Of a stretch of DNA of 64,000 nt, positions 2,951 through 14,868 are shown one piece after another. A model generated the notes under the pieces. That model had not been told where the DNA came from, ran no database searches, and worked only from the letters and a program-made list of their open reading frames with translations. The number at the start of each line of letters is the position of its first letter. Position 1 is the first letter of the stretch. The stretch is from Sulfurovaceae bacterium (lineage in GTDB: Bacteria > Campylobacterota > Campylobacteria > Campylobacterales > Sulfurovaceae): the NCBI GenBank assembly GCA_028715055.1, contig JAQTLE010000001.1:1-64000 (forward strand). Direction: 5' to 3'. A program made the position numbers and the translations under genes.

Positions 2951-3110
2951 GATACTTTTTTATAAAAGTATCACAAAAAGCGTCACATTCACGAATCGTA
3001 ACGCATAATTTCTGCGAAGCCTCTCGAAATTATGCTACTTTTCGAGCGTTCGTGTGACATTATTTTATAGATTGCTTCTTCGCTTCGTTCACAATAACGA
3101 CTATAAAATA
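2951..3110. repeat. Cluster of three nested palindromes (BIME/REP-like)
   Basis: Three stem-loops occur in 160 bp. First, GATACTTTT/AAAAGTATC (2951-2972, loop TTAT). Second, GCATAATTTC/GAAATTATGC (3003-3035), nested inside an outer pair GTCACA..CGAA / TTCGTGTGAC (2982-3058). Third, TATTTTATAG/CTATAAAATA (3061-3110), which encloses GATTGCTTCTTCGCTTCG, similar to a very common dispersed bacterial repeat. The last arm overlaps the mrp stop codon and could end mrp transcription. The stretch 2771-2950 to its left holds nothing recognised. Confidence 0.6.
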
Positions 3111-4138
3111 CCCATTTGAACCAAAAGATTTCTTGTAATACTCAGATAATATTCCTTTTGGATAGCATCATCAGTGGCAACAGCCGGTCTACCCTCATCC
3201 GACGTCTGTCTAATGGACATCGTAAGAGGAATTTTGCCAAGCAATGGAATATTGTAGCGATTTGCTATCATCTCTCCGCCTCCGCTTCCAAAGATTTCAT
3301 ATGCGGCACCAGTATCCGGGGCTATAAAAAAGCTCATGTTTTCTACTATTCCACCAATTGGTACGCCGATGTCCTTGAACATCATAACAGCACGGCTTAC
3401 GTCATCTGTGCTGATAGCTTGCGGTGTTGTGACTATCACGCTTGCAGAGATCGGTAATTCTTGTGCCATTGTAAGCTGTATATCACCAGTACCTGGAGGC
3501 ATATCGATAACTAAAAAGTCTAATTCGCCCCATGCCACATCTTCTAAAAACTGGATGAGAGCAGAAACTGCGACAGAGCTTCTCCATACCAAAGGAGTAT
3601 CACTGCTAGGCGTAGTCAAACCTACGCTCATTAGTTTTATCCCAAAGTTTTCACTAGGCACCATTTTGTTTTCATCATTCCATTCTAATTTTTCTTCATT
3701 CACTCCTATCATTCTAGGAGTATTAGGACCGTAAACATCAGCATCAAGCAAGCCTACCTTGTAGCCAAGTTGTGCTAATGCTACAGAAAGATTTACACTA
3801 ACAGTGCTTTTTCCAACGCCGCCTTTGCCGCTTGTCACTGCAATAATATATTTGGCATAAGATGCACGATTGTTAGGTTTTGCTGTATTGCCGTAATTTA
3901 ACGATGGTTTTAATTTGGGATTAAAGCTTACGTCAATATGTTCAAAATCTTTATTTAAAACATCAATAATTTGGGATTCAATAGTTTCAAATACTGATTC
4001 ATTGGAAATAGCTAGTTCTATGCGAACCTTATTTCCGTTCGGTTCTATTTTTTTAACAGTTTTTAATGTCATTATATCCTTGTCTAGACCGGGATAAATG
4101 ACACTGTTTAGTCGTTTTTCGATAAATCTTTTATTCAT
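3101..4138 (-). CDS. mrp: Mrp/ApbC-family P-loop ATPase, cysteine-free
   Basis: 345 residues from the ATG at 4138, chosen because it overlaps the upstream stop as ATGA; a frame extension to 4192 has no support. An N-terminal MIP18-like domain (about 1-75) is followed by a deviant Walker A, GKGGVGKST (104-112), and DMPPGTGD (212-219). The family carries and inserts Fe-S clusters, usually through a CxxC near the C-terminus. Here that site reads APDTG (273-277), and the whole protein has no Cys. The family is certain, but cluster binding through its own Cys is not possible. It is last in a three-gene operon divergent from the Mo-enzyme cluster, suggesting a role in maturing it (inference). Confidence 0.88.
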   Translation of the reverse strand: MNKRFIEKRLNSVIYPGLDKDIMTLKTVKKIEPNGNKVRIELAISNESVFETIESQIIDVLNKDFEHIDVSFNPKLKPSLNYGNTAKPNNRASYAKYIIAVTSGKGGVGKSTVSVNLSVALAQLGYKVGLLDADVYGPNTPRMIGVNEEKLEWNDENKMVPSENFGIKLMSVGLTTPSSDTPLVWRSSVAVSALIQFLEDVAWGELDFLVIDMPPGTGDIQLTMAQELPISASVIVTTPQAISTDDVSRAVMMFKDIGVPIGGIVENMSFFIAPDTGAAYEIFGSGGGEMIANRYNIPLLGKIPLTMSIRQTSDEGRPAVATDDAIQKEYYLSITRNLLVQMGIL

Positions 4139-4494
4139 GCCCCCATCTCTCTTTTGATAAGCAGATCTGTAGCTTTGGCTTTTTGCAGCCAAATAGAAAT
4201 CATCGGCCTTGCATACGGATGTAAGTTGCCAAGCTCTGTATATTGCATAGCTCTGTGTTTGATAAGGTTAGATACGGCAACAAAAAGGTTTTTTATTTTA
4301 TTGTCTTTTTTGGCATCCCCCAATAATTTTGAAAATAAGATATTTCTTTCTTTTAGCGGCAATTCATAACCAATATTTTTTCCTAACTGAACAATGTCAT
4401 AAGAAGATATGTATATTCCACTATAATATAAAGACAGGATCTGTTTTTCTAGTGTTTCATATTCGTTTTGTCTGTTTTCATGTTTTGGCTTCAT
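4135..4494 (-). CDS. Conserved hypothetical protein in the mrp operon
   Basis: 119 residues with no signal peptide or membrane segment: a mostly helical, charged, cytoplasmic protein with no Cys, so no metal site of that kind. I do not recognise the family. It is sandwiched between the LRV-repeat protein and Mrp with 4-bp ATGA overlaps on both sides, so it is almost certainly translated with them. A role alongside Mrp in maturation of the divergent molybdoenzyme is a guess from position only. Confidence 0.75.
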   Translation of the reverse strand: MKPKHENRQNEYETLEKQILSLYYSGIYISSYDIVQLGKNIGYELPLKERNILFSKLLGDAKKDNKIKNLFVAVSNLIKHRAMQYTELGNLHPYARPMISIWLQKAKATDLLIKREMGA

Positions 4495-5057
4495 TTTGTT
4501 TCTCCTAGTTTTATCTTGGCAGCTTTTGATACATTCGTATCTTCATCATTTACCATGGACGATAAAACCTCCTTCGGAGTAGATATGTTTTCCGCCACTC
4601 TGAGACGTACCATTTTATCGCTATCACTTGCCAAGACTTTAAGTAGTTTTACCGGAGTATTTGGATTACCCGATAATCCATCTCTTACTATTTTTTCATC
4701 AGAAAATAATTTATTTAGAATAGATACCGGCGTATTTGGATTGGTAGCAACCAGAGCTCTTACTAAATTAATATCGTCATTGGCTAATTTTTCTAATATA
4801 TCTATAGGCGTAAAGTGGTTTTTTGCCACTGCCCATCTGCTTCCCATATCATTAACATCACTTAAGTCTCTCAAAAGAGAAATCATCTCATCGCTTTTGC
4901 CCTGCTCTTTGTCGTAAACGCTGCATTTGCGAGATATATTCATGCCGACCATACCTGCAATTTCGTTATTGTCTTTAAAGGCATCAAAAATCTTTCTTAC
5001 TTGTTCTATAGGTAGTTCGCTTTGCGATAATGCTTCGATAGCTTCTTCGTGACTCAT
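4491..5057 (-). CDS. Leucine-rich-variant (LRV) repeat protein
   Basis: 188 residues. From about residue 75 on it is built of roughly 25-residue units, each with an NPNTP- or NISTP-like corner followed by xxLLxxLxxDxxxxVR (for example NPNTPVSILNKLFSDEKIVR and NPNTPVKLLKVLASDSDKMV). This is the LRV/HEAT-like solenoid signature, a protein-binding scaffold. Known LRV proteins occur near nitrogenase genes and carry an N-terminal Fe-S site, but here there is one Cys only, so no such cluster. First gene of the operon running to mrp. The start codon follows AAGGGTAACAATT. The exact role is unknown. Confidence 0.75.
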   Translation of the reverse strand: MSHEEAIEALSQSELPIEQVRKIFDAFKDNNEIAGMVGMNISRKCSVYDKEQGKSDEMISLLRDLSDVNDMGSRWAVAKNHFTPIDILEKLANDDINLVRALVATNPNTPVSILNKLFSDEKIVRDGLSGNPNTPVKLLKVLASDSDKMVRLRVAENISTPKEVLSSMVNDEDTNVSKAAKIKLGETK

Positions 5058-5385
5058 AATTGTTACCCTTTTTTATAACGTTTTAATGTGAATATAACAT
5101 ATTCGAGTTAAAATGGGTTAAAAGATGGCAAATTATTACGTTTTATCGTTATGTATAATTACATATAACGATTTTTATCAATAAAATGACTTGATATAAT
5201 TAGCTGTCTTGATAGAAAGTTTATTAAAATTTTTAATTTTATATAAGTAAAGCATATTTTATAACTATAATTTTTTTTTAATTGTTTTTAAGTATATATT
5301 CTTATAATAATAAATACAACAATGCTATTAATAGTTTCTATAGCAGTACTATGATAGATAGTTAAAATAGTAATAAGGAGAATTT
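5058..5385. promoter_or_regulatory. Divergent control region between mrp operon and Mo-enzyme operon
   Basis: 328 bp with no gene, extremely AT-rich. It must contain promoters for both the leftward LRV-mrp operon and the rightward rhodanese/molybdoenzyme operon. It holds the ModE-like palindrome at 5145-5172, several TATAAT-like hexamers (TATAAT at about 5155 and 5195-5201), and AAGGAG just before the ATG at 5386. The stretch at 5268-5290 is a T-rich run that may bend. Confidence 0.6.
5145..5172. promoter_or_regulatory. Candidate ModE (molybdate-responsive regulator) box
   Basis: 28-bp palindrome: ATCGTTAT (5145-5152), 12 bases, ATAACGAT (5165-5172). The inner bases are also partly symmetric (GTA..TAC). 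The E. coli modA operator recognised by ModE has CGTTAT and ATAACG separated by the same 12 bases, and the published proteobacterial consensus is likewise about 28 bp with ATCGxTAT ends. It lies 88 bp before the LRV start and 213 bp before the rhodanese start, between two operons tied to a Mo-enzyme. Assignment rests on this match and context; modE itself is not in the window. Confidence 0.65.
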
Positions 5386-6423
5386 ATGAAGAGAGTTGCA
5401 AGCGTTGTTTTAATGAGCAGTGTGCTTGCTGTTAGTTCACTATATGGTGCACCTATACAGCTTATAGAACCAGCAGAAGCGATAAAGCTTATAGGTAATA
5501 AAAATGTTGTTTTTGTTTCGGGAGATGACGAGGATGCATTTACAAATGGACACATATTGGGTTCAGTAGATATGTTCGCACACCATTTGCACCATTCTGA
5601 TATAATGGGCAATATGGAATGTGCTCCATTGTATCAGTGTCCAAAAGATGCGCAAGAATTAATAAGAAGCAAAGGCATAAAGAATGATCAAATGATTATC
5701 GCGTACGATAATCATCGTGGACCAAATGCAACCGGTGTTTATAGCTTTTTTGAAAGCTTTGGCCATAAAAATTTGAAACTTTTAAATGGCGGATATGACG
5801 GCATTAAAGAAGTAGATCCAAATCAACAAAAATATGATGCACTAAAAAAAGAGAGAAAAGCCGCGAAAAAAGCACATCAAAAAGACAAAGAAGAAGCGTT
5901 GTCTGCTCAAATGGATGCACTTAAGCCAAAACTTCTTGTTCAGCCTGGAGAAGAGGGAAAGCATACTCCTAGTAATTATGTGATCGATCCAAAAAATCTT
6001 AATACAAAATATATAGCAGACAAGCAGGAAGTCAAAAAAGCAGTTGACGATATATTAAAAAACGGTGATAAAAGCAAATTCGTAGTAATTGATGCTAGAA
6101 GCATGGATGAGATTATTGGTGAGAAAAAGATGGATAATGTGGCAAGAGGCGGACATATTCCTGGAGCAAAACTTATCGAATGGAAAAACATTACGGACGA
6201 AGAAAAAGTAAGACCATTTAAATCAAATGCCGAGTTGCAAAAATTATTTGATAAAACAGGCGTTAGAAAAAATCAAACAATATATGCTTATTGTCAAGTT
6301 GGTGCAGGAAGAGGTTCTCATATTATCTCTGCACTTCGTAACCTAGGGTATCAAAATGTTAAAGTATTTACTGGCAGTTGGGATGCATGGGGTAACGATA
6401 TGAATTTACCGATCAGAAGATAA
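5386..6423 (+). CDS. Periplasmic tandem-rhodanese sulfurtransferase
   Basis: 345 residues with a Sec signal peptide (about 1-21). There are two rhodanese modules. The N-terminal one (about 25-140) has Asp in place of the catalytic Cys (AYDNHRGPNATG, D108) and is probably inactive. A charged Lys/Glu-rich linker follows (about 142-200), then the C-terminal module with Cys303 in CQVGAGRG, an active-site loop unlike the CRxGxT of thiosulfate or CGSGVT of mercaptopyruvate sulfurtransferases. It would move sulfane sulfur in the periplasm. It is 13 bp upstream of the Mo catalytic subunit and likely co-transcribed, which suggests the enzyme's substrate or product contains sulfur (inference). AAGGAG precedes the start. 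Confidence 0.85.
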   Translation: MKRVASVVLMSSVLAVSSLYGAPIQLIEPAEAIKLIGNKNVVFVSGDDEDAFTNGHILGSVDMFAHHLHHSDIMGNMECAPLYQCPKDAQELIRSKGIKNDQMIIAYDNHRGPNATGVYSFFESFGHKNLKLLNGGYDGIKEVDPNQQKYDALKKERKAAKKAHQKDKEEALSAQMDALKPKLLVQPGEEGKHTPSNYVIDPKNLNTKYIADKQEVKKAVDDILKNGDKSKFVVIDARSMDEIIGEKKMDNVARGGHIPGAKLIEWKNITDEEKVRPFKSNAELQKLFDKTGVRKNQTIYAYCQVGAGRGSHIISALRNLGYQNVKVFTGSWDAWGNDMNLPIRR

Positions 6424-6436
6424 GAGGAATAATATA

Positions 6437-9343
6437 ATGACAAAAATAATGACAAATGAAAAAAGACGAAATTTTCTAAAGTTTTCTAGTGTAACTGCTG
6501 CTATGGTTGCATCACAAGGGTCTCTTTTTGCTAAAACCGATGTTATGAAAATCGAAAATGGCAAAGAAGGATACCCAAATACTACGTATACTGAAGATAT
6601 GTATCGTAATGAGTTTGGATTCATCCGCGGAAATACAGAAGACACAGGTTTTGCATATCACTGTGTAAACTGTCAAGGAAACTGCGCTTGGGAGATATGG
6701 TCGCATAATGGTGTTGTAACGCGCGAAAACCAATCAGCAAGATACCCATCGATCAATCCTAAAATACCTGATTTTAATCCAAGAGGATGCAACAAAGGCG
6801 TACAACACTCTCAGATTATGTATGAAAAAGACAGAATCCTTTATCCAATGAGAAGAGTAGGCGAAAGAGGAGAAGGTAAATGGCAAAGAATCAGCTGGGA
6901 TGAAGCAGCTCATGAAGTGGCCCAAAAAATCTGGGATGTCATGACCGATCCTACTAAAGGGCCGGATAAGCTTATGGTTCACGCAGGAACCGGTCTATTA
7001 ACAGAAGGTAGAAGAGGCGGACCGTTAAGATTCTCAACCATGCTGGGTTCAAGCCGTATCTATCCATCTTCTTATCTAGGAGATATGTTCTCCGGAGCGG
7101 CATTGGCTTATGGTGAAGGAAATGTAGGCTGTACTTACGACTTTATGTATAATGTGGATACCGCGATCTTTTGGGGCGGGAATCCATCGGTTTCTAGAAT
7201 TCCGGATGCTCACTTTGTATGGGAAGGAAAATACAATGGAGCAAAAGTTATAGTCATAACTCCTGAGTTTAATGCATCTGCAAGAGCAGCCGATATTTGG
7301 ATACCTGTAAAAGCAGGAACGGATAATATATTGGCAGCTTCTGTAATTCATGAGATACTCAAAGAAAAACTATATAAACCTGAATTTATGAAAATCTTTA
7401 CAGATCTTCCATTTTTGGTCATCAAAGATACCAAGAAATTACTTAGACGCAGCGATGTAGAAAAAGCCAAAAACCCTGAAGACGAAGAGAAGTATCACGA
7501 AGAGTTTTATGTTATGAACAAAAACACTGACAAGATAGCGCTTATGCCAGGCACAGAAGGTAGCGAGCATAAATCACTCCGTCTAGCAGAGCTTAATATC
7601 GATCCTGAGCTTGAGGGAGAATGGGACGTAGATCTATTAAACGGCGAAGAAGTAGAAGTGACTACTGTATTTGAGATGCTTAAAGCAAATATAGAAAAAT
7701 TTTCTCCGGAAGAAACACAAAAAATTACGGGAGTGCATCCGGACACTGTCAAGATGCTGGCTCGTGATATTGCTCTTCCAAAAGTAGTAACGATTACTAC
7801 AGGATTCTCGCTCAATAAATATTTTAATGGCTTAATGAGCATATGGAATATCTCATCTATCTGCGGTCTTACAGGTCGCCTTGGGCCATATGGCGGACTT
7901 AATACGGAAAATGAATTCAAACTTTCCGGTCTTGATGTATTGGGCGGATTTGGCGGCAAATATACAGCTAGATTTGGTTCCGGTTTCGTGGGCGAGTTCG
8001 TATTTGGTGATGGACTAAAGACTTTTGATAAATATTTCGGAGACGAAGACGTAAAAAGAGCTCAAAACGGTATGGGCAAAAAAGAGTATATGCAGATCAT
8101 ATCTGCAATGCTTGCAAAAGGTAAATTGGGCAAAGCAAATGCAGAAAGCAAGACCGGCAATGTAGCCAAACCATGGTGGGAACCTGAAGTTTGTTTGGTC
8201 ATAGCAGACTCTAAATTCAGAAGAAACAAAGGTGCAGAATACCGTGAAGCATTCTTTAAAAAGATAAAATATTTTGCATATGTGGATCATCGCATGAGTG
8301 AAACAGCAGTCTATTCCGACCTTGTTTTACCAGCAAAATCACACTATGAAGTTTGGGACCTAAGAACTAGTCCGGGGTACCATAGATTTACAAATCTAGC
8401 TCAACCGATAGCAAATATTAAGCCGGTAGGCGAAGCTATGGATGAGTGGAGTATGATGGCTCTTATCGCTAAAAAGCTTGAAGAAATAGCTAATAAACCT
8501 GAAAATATAGCAAAAGCTAAAGTGCCGGATGATAAAAGATATGCAAAACCCGGTTTCCATGATCTGACAATAGTATACAAAGAGTTTACAAATACCGATG
8601 AAGACTCAGAAGCCAACATGGAACCATATTTGGGAACCGATAAAATGGCAGTTGATGCTGCATTAGAAAAATGCGAACAATATGAAGGATGGACGGCTGA
8701 AAAAATGTACAAAGCAGGCGGATATTTACAGCTGAATGAAAAAGCCGGTAAATTGTCACCTTTGTACTCAGACAGACCTTATAATACTTTTGAAAACTTG
8801 TTATATAGATTTGAAAGACTTGAGACATTATCTGGCCGACAAACTTTCTATGTAGATCATGATATGTATATCAGAATGGGTGCAAACACTAACACTGGCA
8901 TGGAGGGCATAAGACCTATAGATCCTAAGAGATATCCATTCGTACTAATGACACCGCATGCTAGATGGTCGATACATTCTAACTACAAAGCAAGTAGAAC
9001 TTTGCAAAGACTTCAAAGAGGCGGTGTGCCATATGGCCAGATCAATCGAGAAGTAGCAAAAGTAAAAGGTATCAAAGATGGTGATATGCTCAGAGTATAC
9101 AATAGTTTGGGACAGTTCTTTGTAATGGCAAAAGTTTCAAGCTCATGCCCGCCTGATGGTTTGGTAATGGAAGACGGATGGGAACCATATATGTACAGAT
9201 ACAACAGAGGTCATAATGAATGTGTACCGACTTCATTGAATCTTCTTGAAATGGCTGATGGATGGGGACATCTGAAGTTTGGTCCTCTTTGGGACGGAAA
9301 CCAATATGCGTATGACGGCGCAATCAATATAGAGAAAGCGTAA
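6437..9343 (+). CDS. Tat-exported type II molybdopterin oxidoreductase, catalytic subunit
   Basis: 968 residues. The twin-Arg signal is KRRNFLKFSS (about 9-18) followed by a hydrophobic stretch, so it folds in the cytoplasm and acts in the periplasm. FS0 cluster ligands follow the type II pattern H75-x3-C79-x3-C83...C118, as in NarG, SerA, PcrA, EbdA and DdhA, rather than the four-Cys pattern of Nap/Psr. The region YLGDMFSG (213-220) probably gives Asp216 as Mo ligand. Length and partners match the selenate/chlorate/perchlorate/ethylbenzene/DMS enzyme clade. The substrate cannot be fixed from sequence. It is followed 11 bp later by the beta subunit. A second ATG at 6449 is a possible start but keeps the same Tat motif. 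Confidence 0.9.
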   Translation: MTKIMTNEKRRNFLKFSSVTAAMVASQGSLFAKTDVMKIENGKEGYPNTTYTEDMYRNEFGFIRGNTEDTGFAYHCVNCQGNCAWEIWSHNGVVTRENQSARYPSINPKIPDFNPRGCNKGVQHSQIMYEKDRILYPMRRVGERGEGKWQRISWDEAAHEVAQKIWDVMTDPTKGPDKLMVHAGTGLLTEGRRGGPLRFSTMLGSSRIYPSSYLGDMFSGAALAYGEGNVGCTYDFMYNVDTAIFWGGNPSVSRIPDAHFVWEGKYNGAKVIVITPEFNASARAADIWIPVKAGTDNILAASVIHEILKEKLYKPEFMKIFTDLPFLVIKDTKKLLRRSDVEKAKNPEDEEKYHEEFYVMNKNTDKIALMPGTEGSEHKSLRLAELNIDPELEGEWDVDLLNGEEVEVTTVFEMLKANIEKFSPEETQKITGVHPDTVKMLARDIALPKVVTITTGFSLNKYFNGLMSIWNISSICGLTGRLGPYGGLNTENEFKLSGLDVLGGFGGKYTARFGSGFVGEFVFGDGLKTFDKYFGDEDVKRAQNGMGKKEYMQIISAMLAKGKLGKANAESKTGNVAKPWWEPEVCLVIADSKFRRNKGAEYREAFFKKIKYFAYVDHRMSETAVYSDLVLPAKSHYEVWDLRTSPGYHRFTNLAQPIANIKPVGEAMDEWSMMALIAKKLEEIANKPENIAKAKVPDDKRYAKPGFHDLTIVYKEFTNTDEDSEANMEPYLGTDKMAVDAALEKCEQYEGWTAEKMYKAGGYLQLNEKAGKLSPLYSDRPYNTFENLLYRFERLETLSGRQTFYVDHDMYIRMGANTNTGMEGIRPIDPKRYPFVLMTPHARWSIHSNYKASRTLQRLQRGGVPYGQINREVAKVKGIKDGDMLRVYNSLGQFFVMAKVSSSCPPDGLVMEDGWEPYMYRYNRGHNECVPTSLNLLEMADGWGHLKFGPLWDGNQYAYDGAINIEKA

Positions 9344-9354
9344 GGAGAAGAGTA

Positions 9355-10476
9355 ATGTCAAAAAGACAATTAGCAATGGTCATGGATTTGAATAAATGTA
9401 TAGGTTGCCAAACCTGTACAGTTGCATGTAAAACCCAGTGGACAAACAGAAATGGCCGTGAATATATGTATTGGAACAATGTAGAGACTTATCCTGGGGA
9501 AGGATATCCTAAAAAATGGATGGATCTTGGTGGCGGATTTGATGCAGCCGGCGATCTCAAAGAAGGTGTAATCCCAAATATTGAAGCCGATTACGGCGTG
9601 CCATGGGATTTTAGTTATGACGAGTTGGCTACATTTAATTTTCGTGAACATAATCCGGTAGCCGCTTTTCATGCAGATAGTACACCTACATGGGGGCCAA
9701 ACTGGGATGAAGATGAAGGAGCTGGTAATTTCCCAAGCGACAACTATTTCTTTTACCTGCCAAGAATTTGCAATCATTGCACAAACCCCGGATGTCTTAG
9801 TGCATGTCCAAGGGATGCGATATTCAAAAGAGATCAAGACGGTGTAGTGCTTGTAGATTTGGATAGATGTCAAGGATACAGATATTGTATAGCAGGGTGT
9901 CCTTACAAAAAGATATATTTTAACCCTAAAATTTCTAAGAGCGAAAAATGTATTTTGTGCTTTCCTAGAATCGAGCAAGGTTTACCACCTGCATGTGCAC
10001 AGCAATGTGTCGGTAGAATCAGATTTGTCGGTTTCCTGGATGACGAAGAAGGACAAGTGCATAAATTGGTACATAAATATAAAGTCGCACTTCCTTTGAG
10101 AAGCGATTATGGTACACAGCCAAATATATATTATATACCGCCAACTGAAGCACCTGCAAAATTTGATGCTGAGGGTAAAATCATTGAAGGAAGTCAAAGG
10201 GTACCGATGAAAGAGCTTGAGACTCTATTTGGAAAATCTGTTAATGATGCTATTAAGACTCTTAAAGCAGAAAAAGACAAAAGAACAAAAACCGGCGAAA
10301 GCGAACTAATGGATATGTTGATTGCTTATCATCACCAAGATATGTTTAGACTTGATGCTAATTATTATCAAGATATAGCAAAAGCTAAAAATAACACAAA
10401 TCCATTGGCGCCGATAGACAATCGCTATGCAAAAGGTAAGTTTACCAAAGAAATTAATTTCAAGGCAAATGCATGA
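9355..10476 (+). CDS. Fe-S (beta) subunit of the type II molybdoenzyme
   Basis: 373 residues with no signal peptide of its own, so it is expected to be carried out by the Tat signal of its partner. Four cluster sites are visible: CIGCQTCTVACKTQW (N-terminus), CNHCTNPGCLSACP, CQGYRYCIAGCPYKK and CILCFPR...CAQQCVGR. In the third, Tyr replaces the second Cys, as Trp does in NarH, which predicts one [3Fe-4S] and three [4Fe-4S] clusters. The conserved IAGCPYKKIYFNPK block is diagnostic of NarH/EbdB/SerB/PcrB. It passes electrons between the Mo subunit and the haem subunit encoded next, whose start overlaps its stop by 4 bp. Confidence 0.92.
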   Translation: MSKRQLAMVMDLNKCIGCQTCTVACKTQWTNRNGREYMYWNNVETYPGEGYPKKWMDLGGGFDAAGDLKEGVIPNIEADYGVPWDFSYDELATFNFREHNPVAAFHADSTPTWGPNWDEDEGAGNFPSDNYFFYLPRICNHCTNPGCLSACPRDAIFKRDQDGVVLVDLDRCQGYRYCIAGCPYKKIYFNPKISKSEKCILCFPRIEQGLPPACAQQCVGRIRFVGFLDDEEGQVHKLVHKYKVALPLRSDYGTQPNIYYIPPTEAPAKFDAEGKIIEGSQRVPMKELETLFGKSVNDAIKTLKAEKDKRTKTGESELMDMLIAYHHQDMFRLDANYYQDIAKAKNNTNPLAPIDNRYAKGKFTKEINFKANA

Positions 10477-11717
10477 AAACTATAATAAAATCTTTAATTA
10501 TAGCTGGCTTGGCAACTGCGACGTATGCCAAAAGTCCAGCTTCTGCACCGGCAGAAAATCTTATAAACGCACAAAGGGTATCAAATATCAATATAGCAAA
10601 TATTTCTCCAAATGACAGTATTTGGAGAAGCGCAAAAACAGCATCAGTTATATTATATCCTCAAACAACAATTAAACTAAATGATGCAAAAGCAAATGCG
10701 GCAAACAAAGATAATAAAGCCAAAGTCGCAAAAGTATCAGCTGTATATAATAATTCAGCAATTGCATTTAAAATAACATGGAAAGATGATACTCAAAGTG
10801 TACAAAACGGCTACAAGTCTGATGTTTATCCGGACGGTTTTGCTATGCAGGTGCCAGTTAGCTTTAATGATCCAAAAAAATTGCCATATATCGGCATGGG
10901 TAGCGAGGGAAGACCGGTGCTTGTACATTTGACCAAAGCGGTCAGTTTGCACTATGAGCCAAATGGAAACGGTGACATAGAGCATCAAATCAACCCGCAT
11001 AATACTAATGCATTTGGTTCTGATCTGAAGAATTATGATGACAAAGTAAATAAACTTGGCAAGCAGACATATTCTCGGGCATTTATATCAGAAGGATTTC
11101 GTTCTATGACAGAAATCAAAGACGGTAGCGATACGTTTGGCATGAAAATGGTATATGATGCCAAAAATAAAACATGGACAGGAGTTGTTGCGAAAAAACT
11201 TAGAGACGGCGAAGCAGATCTAAGCAAGTATGGCGCAATACCTGTATCATTTGCTATCTGGGATGGCGATAAACTTAACCGAGGAGGCGTTAAAAGACTA
11301 TCTTCTTGGGTAGCCGTTAAACTTCAAGGCAAAGCCGGCGGAGACGCTTTGGTAAAAGAGTTGACTTCTAAACCAAAAGGTGATGCCAAAGCAGGTCAAG
11401 CTCAAGTTGAAGCAATGTGCGCAAGTTGTCATACTTTGAGCGCTGCGAAACAAGCAACATCTGCTTATATGGCGCCAAATTTAAATAATATTGGAGGATA
11501 TTCAACAAATGCATACCTAGCTGAGTCAATCAAAGACCCAGAAGCCGTTGTTGTCCCGGGATACAATAGAAATGCTCACAAGTCTTTAGCTTGGTATAAT
11601 CTAGATGCCAAAACAGGCAAAAGAACAACTATCATGCCACCAATGATGAGCGATGATAAGAGCATCAACGATGCTGTTGCATATCTTAAAACTCTAAAAG
11701 CGGAGGTAGAGAAATGA
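10473..11717 (+). CDS. Haem (gamma) subunit: ethylbenzene-dehydrogenase-type domain fused to cytochrome c
   Basis: 414 residues with a Sec signal peptide (about 1-19). Residues about 30-290 form an EB_dh-type beta-sandwich that in EbdC/SerC binds haem b via Met and Lys. Met125 (DGFAMQVP) and Lys241 or 242 (GVVAKKL) are the candidates here. At the C-terminus is a cytochrome c domain with CASCH (316-320) and a distal Met within MPPMM (388-392). Known gamma subunits of this clade are single-haem proteins of about 200-240 residues, so the fused c-type haem is an extra electron exit. Everything is soluble and periplasmic; no quinol-oxidising membrane anchor is encoded nearby. It overlaps its neighbours by 4 bp on both sides. 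Confidence 0.85.
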   Translation: MKTIIKSLIIAGLATATYAKSPASAPAENLINAQRVSNINIANISPNDSIWRSAKTASVILYPQTTIKLNDAKANAANKDNKAKVAKVSAVYNNSAIAFKITWKDDTQSVQNGYKSDVYPDGFAMQVPVSFNDPKKLPYIGMGSEGRPVLVHLTKAVSLHYEPNGNGDIEHQINPHNTNAFGSDLKNYDDKVNKLGKQTYSRAFISEGFRSMTEIKDGSDTFGMKMVYDAKNKTWTGVVAKKLRDGEADLSKYGAIPVSFAIWDGDKLNRGGVKRLSSWVAVKLQGKAGGDALVKELTSKPKGDAKAGQAQVEAMCASCHTLSAAKQATSAYMAPNLNNIGGYSTNAYLAESIKDPEAVVVPGYNRNAHKSLAWYNLDAKTGKRTTIMPPMMSDDKSINDAVAYLKTLKAEVEK

Positions 11718-12154
11718 AAAAATTAGTTTTTGGTGCAATTATTGCAGCATTAATATTTACAGGGTGTGGCAAAAAAAGCGGAGATACAAATGCTACAGAT
11801 GCAAACGGTACATTTGAAAAGCAAGGTTTCTTGACAACCAAATGGTGTGCTGATCGCGGTATGTTCCAAGATTGCCGCATGGAAAGTATAGTATGCGGCG
11901 AAGGCGAATGCAATAAGAATTGGGAGTTTGGCGATAAAGAAAAAATGGAATTGGTGCTTTATGTCCATGACGATTTGAAATATTATAATGTCGATGCTTC
12001 TAAAATCAATTTACCGGATATTCTTGGGGAAGGCATCAACCATGATCAAGTAACCATAAAAGGTAATTTTGATGAAGGCAGCAACACAATTATGGCTACT
12101 TCATTTGTAGCTCCACCAGCTGGCGCAAAGTCTTTCTTCAAAGGCTGTTTGTAA
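11714..12154 (+). CDS. Cys-rich lipoprotein of the molybdoenzyme operon
   Basis: 146 residues. The signal peptide ends in a lipobox FTGC (Cys18), so it is anchored to a membrane facing the periplasm. Five further Cys (45, 54, 61, 66, 145) suggest disulfides or a metal site. No CxxCH is present and I do not recognise the family. The start overlaps the gamma-subunit stop (ATGA) and a strong terminator follows, so it closes the structural part of the operon. It might tether the soluble complex or help assemble it (inference from position). Confidence 0.75.
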   Translation: MKKLVFGAIIAALIFTGCGKKSGDTNATDANGTFEKQGFLTTKWCADRGMFQDCRMESIVCGEGECNKNWEFGDKEKMELVLYVHDDLKYYNVDASKINLPDILGEGINHDQVTIKGNFDEGSNTIMATSFVAPPAGAKSFFKGCL

Positions 12155-12284: not shown

Positions 12285-12860
12285 GTGGACAATAAAATTC
12301 GTGCTTATATATATGCTTTTTTATCACGAATATTTAGCTCTCATATAGATAAAAAACTATTAAATGAGCTACAAGACAATAAAGAGCTGCTTCATACGAT
12401 AGGAAATGAAGCAATGATATATCTTCAAAGCAAAAATGAAGAAAATCTTTTAGAAGAGCTAAATATAGCTTTTCATTCCTTGTTTGTAATGAACAATCAA
12501 CCGATAGAGTCATCGGTTATGGATGCAAAAAATGAGATTTTGGTCGGATTGCAAAATCCGGTCATGCAGTTTTATGTTAATCATGGATATGATCTCAATC
12601 TAGCAGCATCTTCATTGCATGTGCCAGATCACATTGCTATTGAATTCGGGTTTATGCAAAAGTTGATATTGCAACAAGACAAAACAGCTCAAATAAAATT
12701 TTACCGCCAGCATCTGCTTGTGTGGGTTCCTCCTTATCTGCTTGCAATTAAAGAAATAAGTGATAATCCATTTTATAAAGATCTATGTGATTTTTGCATA
12801 GATTTTATGCTGGATGATTATAGCAATCTTTGTATAGAGGCTGTTGATGAGTCTGCTTAG
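12285..12860 (+). CDS. TorD/DmsD-family molybdoenzyme chaperone
   Basis: 191 residues starting with GTG at 12285 after AGGAG. All-helical and cytoplasmic, with the TorD-family features: an N-terminal xxxRAYIYxFLSRIF helix, an MQFYVNHGYDLN segment, VPDHIAIEFGFM (matching the family PDHxxxELxFM signature) and a later RQHLLVWVPPYLLAI segment. Such proteins bind the Tat signal and apo-enzyme until cofactor is loaded. The likely client is the 6437 catalytic subunit. A terminator lies in front, so it probably has its own promoter. It overlaps the next gene by 14 bp. Confidence 0.88.
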   Translation: MDNKIRAYIYAFLSRIFSSHIDKKLLNELQDNKELLHTIGNEAMIYLQSKNEENLLEELNIAFHSLFVMNNQPIESSVMDAKNEILVGLQNPVMQFYVNHGYDLNLAASSLHVPDHIAIEFGFMQKLILQQDKTAQIKFYRQHLLVWVPPYLLAIKEISDNPFYKDLCDFCIDFMLDDYSNLCIEAVDESA

Positions 12861-13902
12861 TCCTGTAAATTCCATTAGGATCGAACCGCTTCGTTGTTTG
12901 AGGATAGAACATTTTCACAATGAATGTTCAAAATGTATTGATTTGTGCCCTTCAGATGCTATCGGATTATCAACATCTAGAAGAATATCGCTAAACAGCA
13001 CAAAATGTATAGAATGCATGGCGTGCATAGGAACATGCCCTACTGAGACATTGTTATATCCTGATTTTGACCCATCGGTTTTTGTTTTACAAACCGGCAT
13101 AAAAAAAGATTTTATGCTTTCTTGTAAAAATAATAATATATGTCTTAGTGCGCTCAATAGCGAAAATTTTATCTCTCTTGGATTGCGTCACCATAGTGTA
13201 AGCTGCGATATGTCGCTTTGCCATGAATGTAATATGAATTTAGACGGAAAGGCCGTTCTGGCAATAAATGAACATATAAATGAAGCAAATAGATTTTTGC
13301 AAGCAGTGGAAAAACAGCATATTGTTATAAACAAAGAACAAAATAAATTATCTCGCAGGGAAGCATTATTTTCTTTTGCAAAAGATGTCAATACATTGCG
13401 CAATGAAGAGTCGTTTGATCAACTTTTTGATCCTAAAGAAACTCTACCAAGATCTAGAGCGGTATTTCAAAATTCAATCAAGCTAGTCATAGAAGAGCTG
13501 CCAGAAGGCAAGATAAAAGAAAATTTTTCGTTTATGTCTCACAAGAAGATAGATTTTGCTTCGTGTGATAATTGTGGCGAGTGTATACAATTTTGCCCTA
13601 CAAACGCGCTGATTTATAGCAGCGATAAGACCAAGATCTTGTTTCAGCCATTGCGTTGCATAGCCTGCGATATATGCGATGATGTATGTAAGCAAAAATC
13701 ATTTAGCAGTGACAATGAACTTGATATAGTAACGTTGGCATTCAATCGTGCAGAAGTTCTCATAGATCATCATTTTGCAGTATGCAGTGAGTGCAGGGTC
13801 AGTTTTCCTCAAAAAGCCGGCGAGACTATTTGTAAAAGATGTGAAAGCTTCGTAAGGAATAATAATAATTTATTCACATTGGCAAGAGATGTAAAATTAT
13901 AA
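12847..13902 (+). CDS. Cytoplasmic polyferredoxin with C-terminal zinc-ribbon-like motif
   Basis: 351 residues from the ATG at 12847; the frame is also open from a TTG at 12844. Four ferredoxin-type Cys groups: CSKCIDLCP (27-35), CIECMACIGTCP (54-65), CDNCGECIQFCP (240-251) and CIACDICDDVC (271-281). They are followed by CSEC...CKRC (313-332), a zinc-ribbon-like pair. There is no signal peptide, so it is cytoplasmic. The middle carries four more Cys (C93, C99, C120, C125/C128 region). Because it is translationally coupled to the TorD chaperone, a role in redox-dependent maturation of the molybdoenzyme is likely, but electron transfer is also possible. The family has no name I can assign. Confidence 0.8.
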   Translation: MSLLSPVNSIRIEPLRCLRIEHFHNECSKCIDLCPSDAIGLSTSRRISLNSTKCIECMACIGTCPTETLLYPDFDPSVFVLQTGIKKDFMLSCKNNNICLSALNSENFISLGLRHHSVSCDMSLCHECNMNLDGKAVLAINEHINEANRFLQAVEKQHIVINKEQNKLSRREALFSFAKDVNTLRNEESFDQLFDPKETLPRSRAVFQNSIKLVIEELPEGKIKENFSFMSHKKIDFASCDNCGECIQFCPTNALIYSSDKTKILFQPLRCIACDICDDVCKQKSFSSDNELDIVTLAFNRAEVLIDHHFAVCSECRVSFPQKAGETICKRCESFVRNNNNLFTLARDVKL

Positions 13903-14686
13903 ATTTTGAGAAATTTTATATCTTTTCCATAAAATAATTCTTTTTTCCGCTTTTGTTTCAAATGTTATTTTATCATTGTTTGTATGTTCAACTAATATTT
14001 TATTTATCAAGTTTTTATGAGGAGCAATTTCTTTGCGAAGCAGATTATCATTGATGTAAGAAATTACCCTAGCATAATCATAGTCTTCTTTCCAAGAAGT
14101 AGTAAAAGTAATTGTTTCAAACGGCATTTTTTTTCTATTAAGTATTTTCATGATCTCTGTTGTTTTCATGCATCCACTGAAGTTTTTTTGTGGAATTTGT
14201 GGCATTTGCGGATGGGCTTCTATTATGGTATCTAGCAGCTCATTTGTTTTATATGCACCCCATCCGACATATATGCCTATGCCGTTTGTAGATTTTATCA
14301 TTTTTTCAAAATGTGCTTTGCTTGAAATTGCCGGCGTCATTGATGCTATGGCTATATCATGACTTTGGTTTGTGCAAAAATCTTCCCATTTGCTTTGATG
14401 GGTTGTGATTCTATTTTTTATGCCAAGCATGGCGGCATCTTGTTTTAAAATATCAAGCATTGCTACAGAGAGGTCTATTGCCGTAACGGATGCACCTTCT
14501 TTAACAAGGGGGGATAGCTACAGTGCCTGTGCCGCAGCCTATATCAAGCACGTTGGCTTCTTTAAAATCGACGCCATTTTCTTTTGCAAAATCAAGCATA
14601 GTGTTGACATCTTTACTCATAGAGTCATCATCATATCTTGGGTATCTAGTAGCCATATTATCCCAAAAGTTGTCTCTATCTTTCAT
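13897..14686 (-). pseudogene. SAM-dependent methyltransferase, frameshifted at a G6 tract
   Basis: Two minus-strand frames together make one methyltransferase. The first (from ATG 14686) has motif I VLDIGCGTGTVAI and then stops. The second (to 13897) continues with the rest of the Rossmann fold and a C-terminal domain. Removing one base from the six-G run at 14508-14513 (plus strand) joins them smoothly (GTVAIPLVKEGASVTAID...). About 260 residues would result. It may be a real pseudogene, a slippage-switched gene or a read error. Its 3' end overlaps the ferredoxin gene convergently by 6 bp. The substrate is unknown. Confidence 0.75.
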
Positions 14687-14868
14687 TTTTTACTCCATAA
14701 TTTTTTTAGTTATATATATTTATATATATCGATATGCAATAAATGTTCCATCACATCTAAGCAAGTCTATTATATGTAATATATCATATTACATTCTAGT
14801 TATTAATTAATTTGAAAGGGAGGAGTTGTATATTTATCAAATAAGAAAACAGCAGATAACTACGTGTA
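14687..14868. other. AT-rich spacer left of the scarred region
   Basis: About 180 bp with no gene. It contains the methyltransferase leader (GAGTAAAAAATG on the minus strand) and an AGGGAGGAG purine run at about 14817-14826 that looks like a ribosome binding site but opens only a short TTG frame. It may be the cut-off start of a lost gene. Confidence 0.4.

Follow-up and report, generated by a model that had tools for sequence, protein, structure and literature searches.

A predicted ModE operator between divergent molybdoenzyme and LRV-u119-Mrp operons of a Sulfurovaceae bacterium seems to be a recent, lineage-specific gain

The stretch of DNA analysed here (the window, 64,000 nucleotides) belongs to a Sulfurovaceae genome (1,764,351 bases, 1.76 Mb, 23 contigs). 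It carries two divergent operons (Table 1). To the left, on the minus strand, lie the genes of an LRV protein, u119 and Mrp, and to the right, on the plus strand, those of a rhodanese, the alpha, beta and gamma-like subunits of a molybdoenzyme, a lipoprotein, a TorD-like chaperone and a ferredoxin-like protein. Read directly from the window, positions 5145-5172 of the spacer between them are ATCGTTATGTATAATTACATATAACGAT, which resolves into ATCGTTAT-GTATAATTACAT-ATAACGAT. This 28-mer displays dyad symmetry, with 24 of its 28 positions self-complementary, and its distance to the nearest start codon is 87 bp on the LRV side and 213 bp on the rhodanese side. A preliminary description had reported half-sites exactly 12 bases apart in a divergent region between a molybdoenzyme operon and an mrp operon; the sequence was found as described, with a spacer of 12 bases, and the flanking genes agree.

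Table 1. Genes and sequence elements on either side of the divergent spacer
Feature	Position	Strand	Evidence
Mrp/ApbC-type Fe-S carrier P-loop NTPase, last gene of left operon	3101..4192	-	PF10609, E=6.7e-94, 314 bits
u119, small all-helical protein, 119 aa	4135..4494	-	conserved beside LRV and Mrp
LRV protein (leucine-rich repeat variant), first gene of left operon	4491..5057	-	PF01816, E=1e-12; co-occurs with rhodanese
Putative -10 element TATATT, LRV-u119-Mrp operon	5091..5096	-	conserved in aligned spacers; inference
ModE operator-like palindrome ATCGTTAT-N12-ATAACGAT	5145..5172	.	exact match; 18/20 of published consensus; 29.3 bits
Putative -10 element TATAAT, rhodanese/molybdoenzyme operon	5303..5308	+	conserved in aligned spacers; inference
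Two-domain rhodanese with signal peptide, first gene of right operon	5386..6423	+	PF00581, two stretches
Molybdopterin catalytic subunit (alpha), type II DMSO reductase family	6437..9343	+	TIGR03479, 756 bits against a cut-off of 984.75 (below)
Fe-S beta subunit	9355..10476	+	TIGR03478, 510 bits, over cut-off
Gamma-like subunit (ethylbenzene dehydrogenase heme domain) fused to c-type cytochrome domain	10473..11717	+	PF09459 and PF00034
Lipoprotein	11714..12154	+	weak lipoprotein matches only; conserved in relatives
TorD/NarJ-like chaperone	12285..12860	+	PF02613, E=3.8e-10
Ferredoxin-like protein with 4Fe-4S motifs	12844..13902	+	sequence; position conserved in relatives
SAM-methyltransferase gene, broken frame	13897..14686	-	three-frame translation; break at G run 14508-14513 (six G)
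Second, weaker ModE-like box	14706..14733	.	24.4 bits; 22.5 without own genus; two mismatches in 12 key bases

Judged by its subunits, the enzyme encoded to the right is a predicted relative of the type II DMSO reductase family. Among the models of that family, the beta subunit scored over its cut-off, and the alpha subunit, the gamma subunit (89.6 against 169.85) and the chaperone (30.1 against 152.3) scored below theirs. The nearest solved structures to the catalytic subunit were 5e7o and 4ydd. The gamma-type heme subunit carries its cytochrome c domain at the C-terminal end, unlike the single-domain gamma subunits known from type II enzymes.

In the operon to the left, Mrp displays the NUBPL/Mrp P-loop NTPase domain and scored below the cut-off of the ApbC equivalog model (300.5 against 348 bits); its true start is probably near 4138. 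This gene is a second copy; the other one, at C1:536224, matches PF10609 slightly better. For u119, searches of Pfam and NCBIfam, a PDB profile search and a fold search returned no family or fold match, and in relatives where the stretch was available this protein always sat between LRV and Mrp. Among 175 genomes of the family, 17 carry LRV, 19 carry the rhodanese and 16 carry both (Fisher p about 1e-18, without correction for phylogeny). By their coordinates, the two genes are divergent neighbours in 15 of these 16 genomes, and lie on separate contigs in the remaining one. A real tie thus joins the molybdoenzyme to the LRV-u119-Mrp operon, and it is this conserved divergent gene order and the second-copy Mrp that point to it, not the palindrome. 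Because of the same synteny and second copy, we may reasonably infer that this Mrp/ApbC-type Fe-S carrier is dedicated to the Fe-S-rich molybdoenzyme beside it.

The E. coli-type ModE operator has the 28-bp consensus ATCGNTATATA-N6-TATATANCGAT (PMC545781). The box at 5145-5172 agrees with it at 18 of the 20 specified positions, while a published Geobacter modD site agrees at 15 of 20. Taken alone, the 12-base core CGTTAT-N12-ATAACG would not be remarkable, as about 0.2 exact sites per genome are expected from base composition. When two mismatches were allowed in this short core, the reversed control gave 184 sites genome-wide against 48 real ones; this control is uninformative because the reversed half-sites are simply commoner, and we therefore relied on the 16-base pattern ATCGTTAT-N12-ATAACGAT and on a score matrix. 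The 16-base pattern occurs exactly once in the window and in the whole genome. Across 399 genomes of the order, it was found with zero mismatches in eight genomes (eight sites, reversed control 0), and all seven sites other than that of the window lie beside modE.

The matrix was built from 31 ModE-type sites of other genomes, none of them from the genome of the window. Some of these sites come from relatives' mod/mol spacers that have orthologues in this genome. The scores of the genome's own modA and mol sites are therefore not independent of the matrix, while that of the window box is. The box scored 29.3 bits, and 27.8 bits when the matrix was trained without its genus; with the genus-excluded matrix it ranked first among the sequences scored from its genome. 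Applied to 3.5 Mb of DNA simulated under a Markov model, the 31-site matrix found zero sites of at least 20 bits.

With one mismatch allowed and no preselection of loci, the 16-base pattern returned 26 sites in 23 of the 175 family genomes, and its reversed control returned 10. Of the 22 loci inspected besides that of the window, 17 adjoin modE, modA/B/C or mol homologues, and five have no recognised molybdenum gene nearby. Among the latter, one strong box lies between RHS-like repeat genes (L096:1501-1528) and another adjoins a gene of the metallo-beta-lactamase fold (L046:1499-1526); these two are either chance occurrences or new targets. Such sites leave some room for reading the window box as a functionless palindrome that arose by chance in AT-rich intergenic DNA. 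We judge this highly unlikely because of the simulated DNA, the empty reversed control of the exact pattern and the genus-excluded matrix; the genome encodes modE and has very few molybdoenzyme spacers, and the placement of the site in one of them also speaks against it.

The modE gene lies at C3:106708-107520. Its product of 270 amino acids displays the architecture of a ModE regulator, with a LysR-type HTH domain (PF00126, E=6e-5, below the gathering score) followed by tandem molybdate-binding TOBE domains (PF03459, in two stretches). Of the ModE profiles, Mop was over its cut-off (72.2 against 55) and the HTH model was below its curated one (85.8 against 98.5 bits). The protein aligns nearly end to end with the E. 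coli ModE structure 1o7l (2.2e-29). Both the SARNQ motif and the recognition helix (SYK-AWD), elements with known roles in ModE, are retained. Two additional weak matches to the ModE HTH model occur in the same genome, and one might suppose that a different regulator with a similar palindrome reads the site. This is extremely unlikely, as the motif tracks modE and mod loci across the order and the full 28-bp ModE consensus fits.

The exact core CGTTAT-N12-ATAACG occurs twice in the 1.76 Mb of the genome, at the window box and at C3:54411. The latter site precedes a cluster encoding a globin, TonB, a binding protein, a TonB receptor, a FecCD permease and an ATPase, which continues into modA-porin-modB-modC; the modA spacer holds a one-mismatch and a two-mismatch site. 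Matrix scores were 25.0 and 21.0 bits for the mol-type sites and 24.1 and 21.5 bits for the modA sites. Scoring within the genome covered 48 sites, those deviating from the 12 key bases at no more than two positions, and used their central 24 bases. The best six sites fell at modA (two), the TonB/Mol-type uptake operon (two) and the molybdoenzyme cluster (two). These six scored from 18.9 to 27.2 bits, the second highest score being that of the window box (25.6). The seventh site (14.4) trailed the sixth by 4.5 bits. No box was found around the other molybdopterin-domain genes of the genome in the stretches examined.

The second site of the enzyme cluster (14706-14733) lies at its far end, 19 bp upstream of the start of a methyltransferase gene (ATG 14686, minus strand). 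The frame of this gene is broken, through a genuine frameshift or through an error in the assembly. The methyltransferase is weakly related to that of the mod cluster.

The whole uptake region with ModE boxes (L019:365-16335, corresponding to C3:38365-54335 of this genome) encodes a globin, TonB, two Mol-type binding proteins, two TonB-dependent receptors, a FecCD permease, an ATPase, a luciferase-like oxidoreductase and a methyltransferase, followed by modA-porin-modB-modC. The combination of box and gene set recurs in many Sulfurovaceae. This arrangement predicts TonB-dependent import of molybdate, or of a molybdate chelate, under ModE. The literature searched on ModE, both in Sulfurovum or other Epsilonproteobacteria and in connection with TonB-dependent uptake, yielded nothing directly relevant.

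Collectively, these results suggest that the palindrome at 5145-5172 is very probably a true operator of the genome's own ModE. The preliminary description had called it ModE-like, and the identification was borne out by the consensus match, by the full-length modE gene and by the concentration of the motif at molybdenum genes, rather than scattered away from them. The genome scan that it had proposed recovered the window copy as the only exact match, with the related best sites at modA, the mol-type operon and the enzyme cluster.

Named relatives that share the enzyme cluster are Sulfurovum, Sulfurovaceae and Sulfuricurvum assemblies. Nine relatives were sampled via the catalytic subunit. All nine keep the cluster, with LRV (followed by u119-Mrp on contigs that extend far enough) transcribed divergently from rhodanese-alpha, and ModE was present in all of them (nine of nine tested), the nearest three being about 80% identical. 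In seven of the nine, a perfect or near-perfect box was found at modA, LLM, molA or TonB-receptor genes. One relative (G007) displayed a one-mismatch site beside its own modE, and another (G004) displayed none. The LRV-rhodanese spacer box was absent in all nine. The comparison of homologous spacers proposed in the preliminary description went further in the same direction, as the box was missing from all 14 orthologous spacers examined, though ModE was present in every relative tested. These comprised 13 LRV-rhodanese spacers across the family, with a best matrix score of 10.0 bits, and a Sulfuricurvum locus (L028); one of the 14 (L058) is interrupted by an assembly gap of Ns. The earlier proposal that the box itself ties the Mrp operon to the molybdoenzyme is thus not supported, and it is synteny that carries this tie.

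The alignment of the spacer with those of the nearest relatives is ungapped at the box. Within it, 13 and 15 of the 28 positions differ, against about 20% of the flanks (p=0.004 and 0.0002, values that are descriptive since the box was not randomly chosen), and no other 28-bp stretch of the spacer, which is otherwise conserved, has diverged as much as 5145-5172. Conservation in no relative's spacer is what a chance palindrome would display, but the concentration of substitutions precisely at the box argues against it. Operators confined to a single lineage are common, and conservation supports an operator rather than defining it. The ModE-type box seems to be a recent, lineage-specific gain, which we favour because one gain is more economical than repeated loss.

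In E. coli, ModE-molybdate represses modABC and activates operons for molybdoenzymes or their partner proteins (PMC3149613). We postulate that, when molybdate is plentiful, ModE-molybdate would bind the box at 5145-5172 and most likely activate the LRV-u119-Mrp operon, the type II DMSO reductase-like operon, or both. Meanwhile, it would repress uptake via the boxes that modA and the TonB/Mol-type operon carry near their start codons; the distances there are 6-104 bp, an arrangement that fits repression. The window box itself would have arisen in this lineage via local base changes within the otherwise conserved spacer. As a whole, this account of operator, activation of one or both divergent units, uptake repression and lineage-specific origin is, in our view, fairly probable.

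The putative -10 elements were read off the aligned spacers; a promoter scan was uninformative (4 found against 3.8 expected). From these elements, the centre of the box lies about 75 bp upstream of the inferred start of the LRV operon and about 155 bp upstream of that of the enzyme operon, and this latter distance counts against the activation account. ModE-molybdate might instead repress one of the operons, the genes of which would then rise when molybdate is scarce. Repression is the action of ModE at mod genes (PMC3149613), the best-characterised boxes of the clade sit at uptake genes, at the short distances given above for this genome, and the window box is only 87 bp from the LRV start codon. 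This alternative is nevertheless unlikely: the box lies over neither of the conserved putative -10 elements, and turning off a molybdoenzyme or its helpers while molybdate is available would make little sense. Because the box is upstream of both elements, we favour activation; LRV-u119-Mrp would be its most direct target, and both operons may respond, as the preliminary description suggested.

A broader proposal is that, in one Sulfurovaceae lineage, a newly evolved ModE site lets molybdate jointly control a molybdoenzyme and a maturation module dedicated to it (LRV, u119 and the second Mrp), another box being placed at the far-end methyltransferase and the module being an unrecognised Fe-S/cofactor insertion system specific to this enzyme. 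We put this forward tentatively and regard it as rather doubtful.

The window box resembles the E. coli-type ModE operator in length (28 bp), dyad symmetry, half-site sequence and spacing, as well as in its location upstream of a molybdoenzyme operon in a genome that encodes ModE. It differs in that it occurs in another phylum, lies between two divergent operons, was gained in one lineage and is predicted only. Within the same phylum, Taveirne et al. reportedly described in 2009 a ModE-like regulator of the molybdate and tungstate transporters of Campylobacter jejuni; ModE-type control of uptake is shared, while the C. jejuni case, by its title, concerns transporters. Our data would add a well-supported predicted ModE target beyond uptake genes in Campylobacterota. 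Synteny is the main pointer to the Mrp-LRV-u119 module being probably dedicated to one molybdoenzyme, and through this module molybdoenzyme-specific Fe-S carriers become a testable question.

In Geobacter sulfurreducens, a ModE box was predicted upstream of modDABC, with the sequence ATCGTTATgTcaTgAAggtTATAGCGtT (PMC545781). It shares with the window box the left half ATCGTTATGT and the overall motif, and both are computational predictions; that of Geobacter is found at a transport operon, whereas that of the window is found at a molybdoenzyme locus. Meanwhile, Geobacter metallireducens has lost the ModE regulon, and its boxes decay after the loss of ModE (PMC2700814). In both cases ModE boxes vary between related genomes with shared targets, but there the regulator is lost and boxes decay, while the present lineage retains ModE and a box emerges at a single locus. 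This locus would thus represent a case of operator gain while regulator and target genes stayed constant. That the palindrome belongs to an already known type, the ModE operator, is well supported by the comparisons above; what is notable is its apparently recent gain and the conserved module that it faces.
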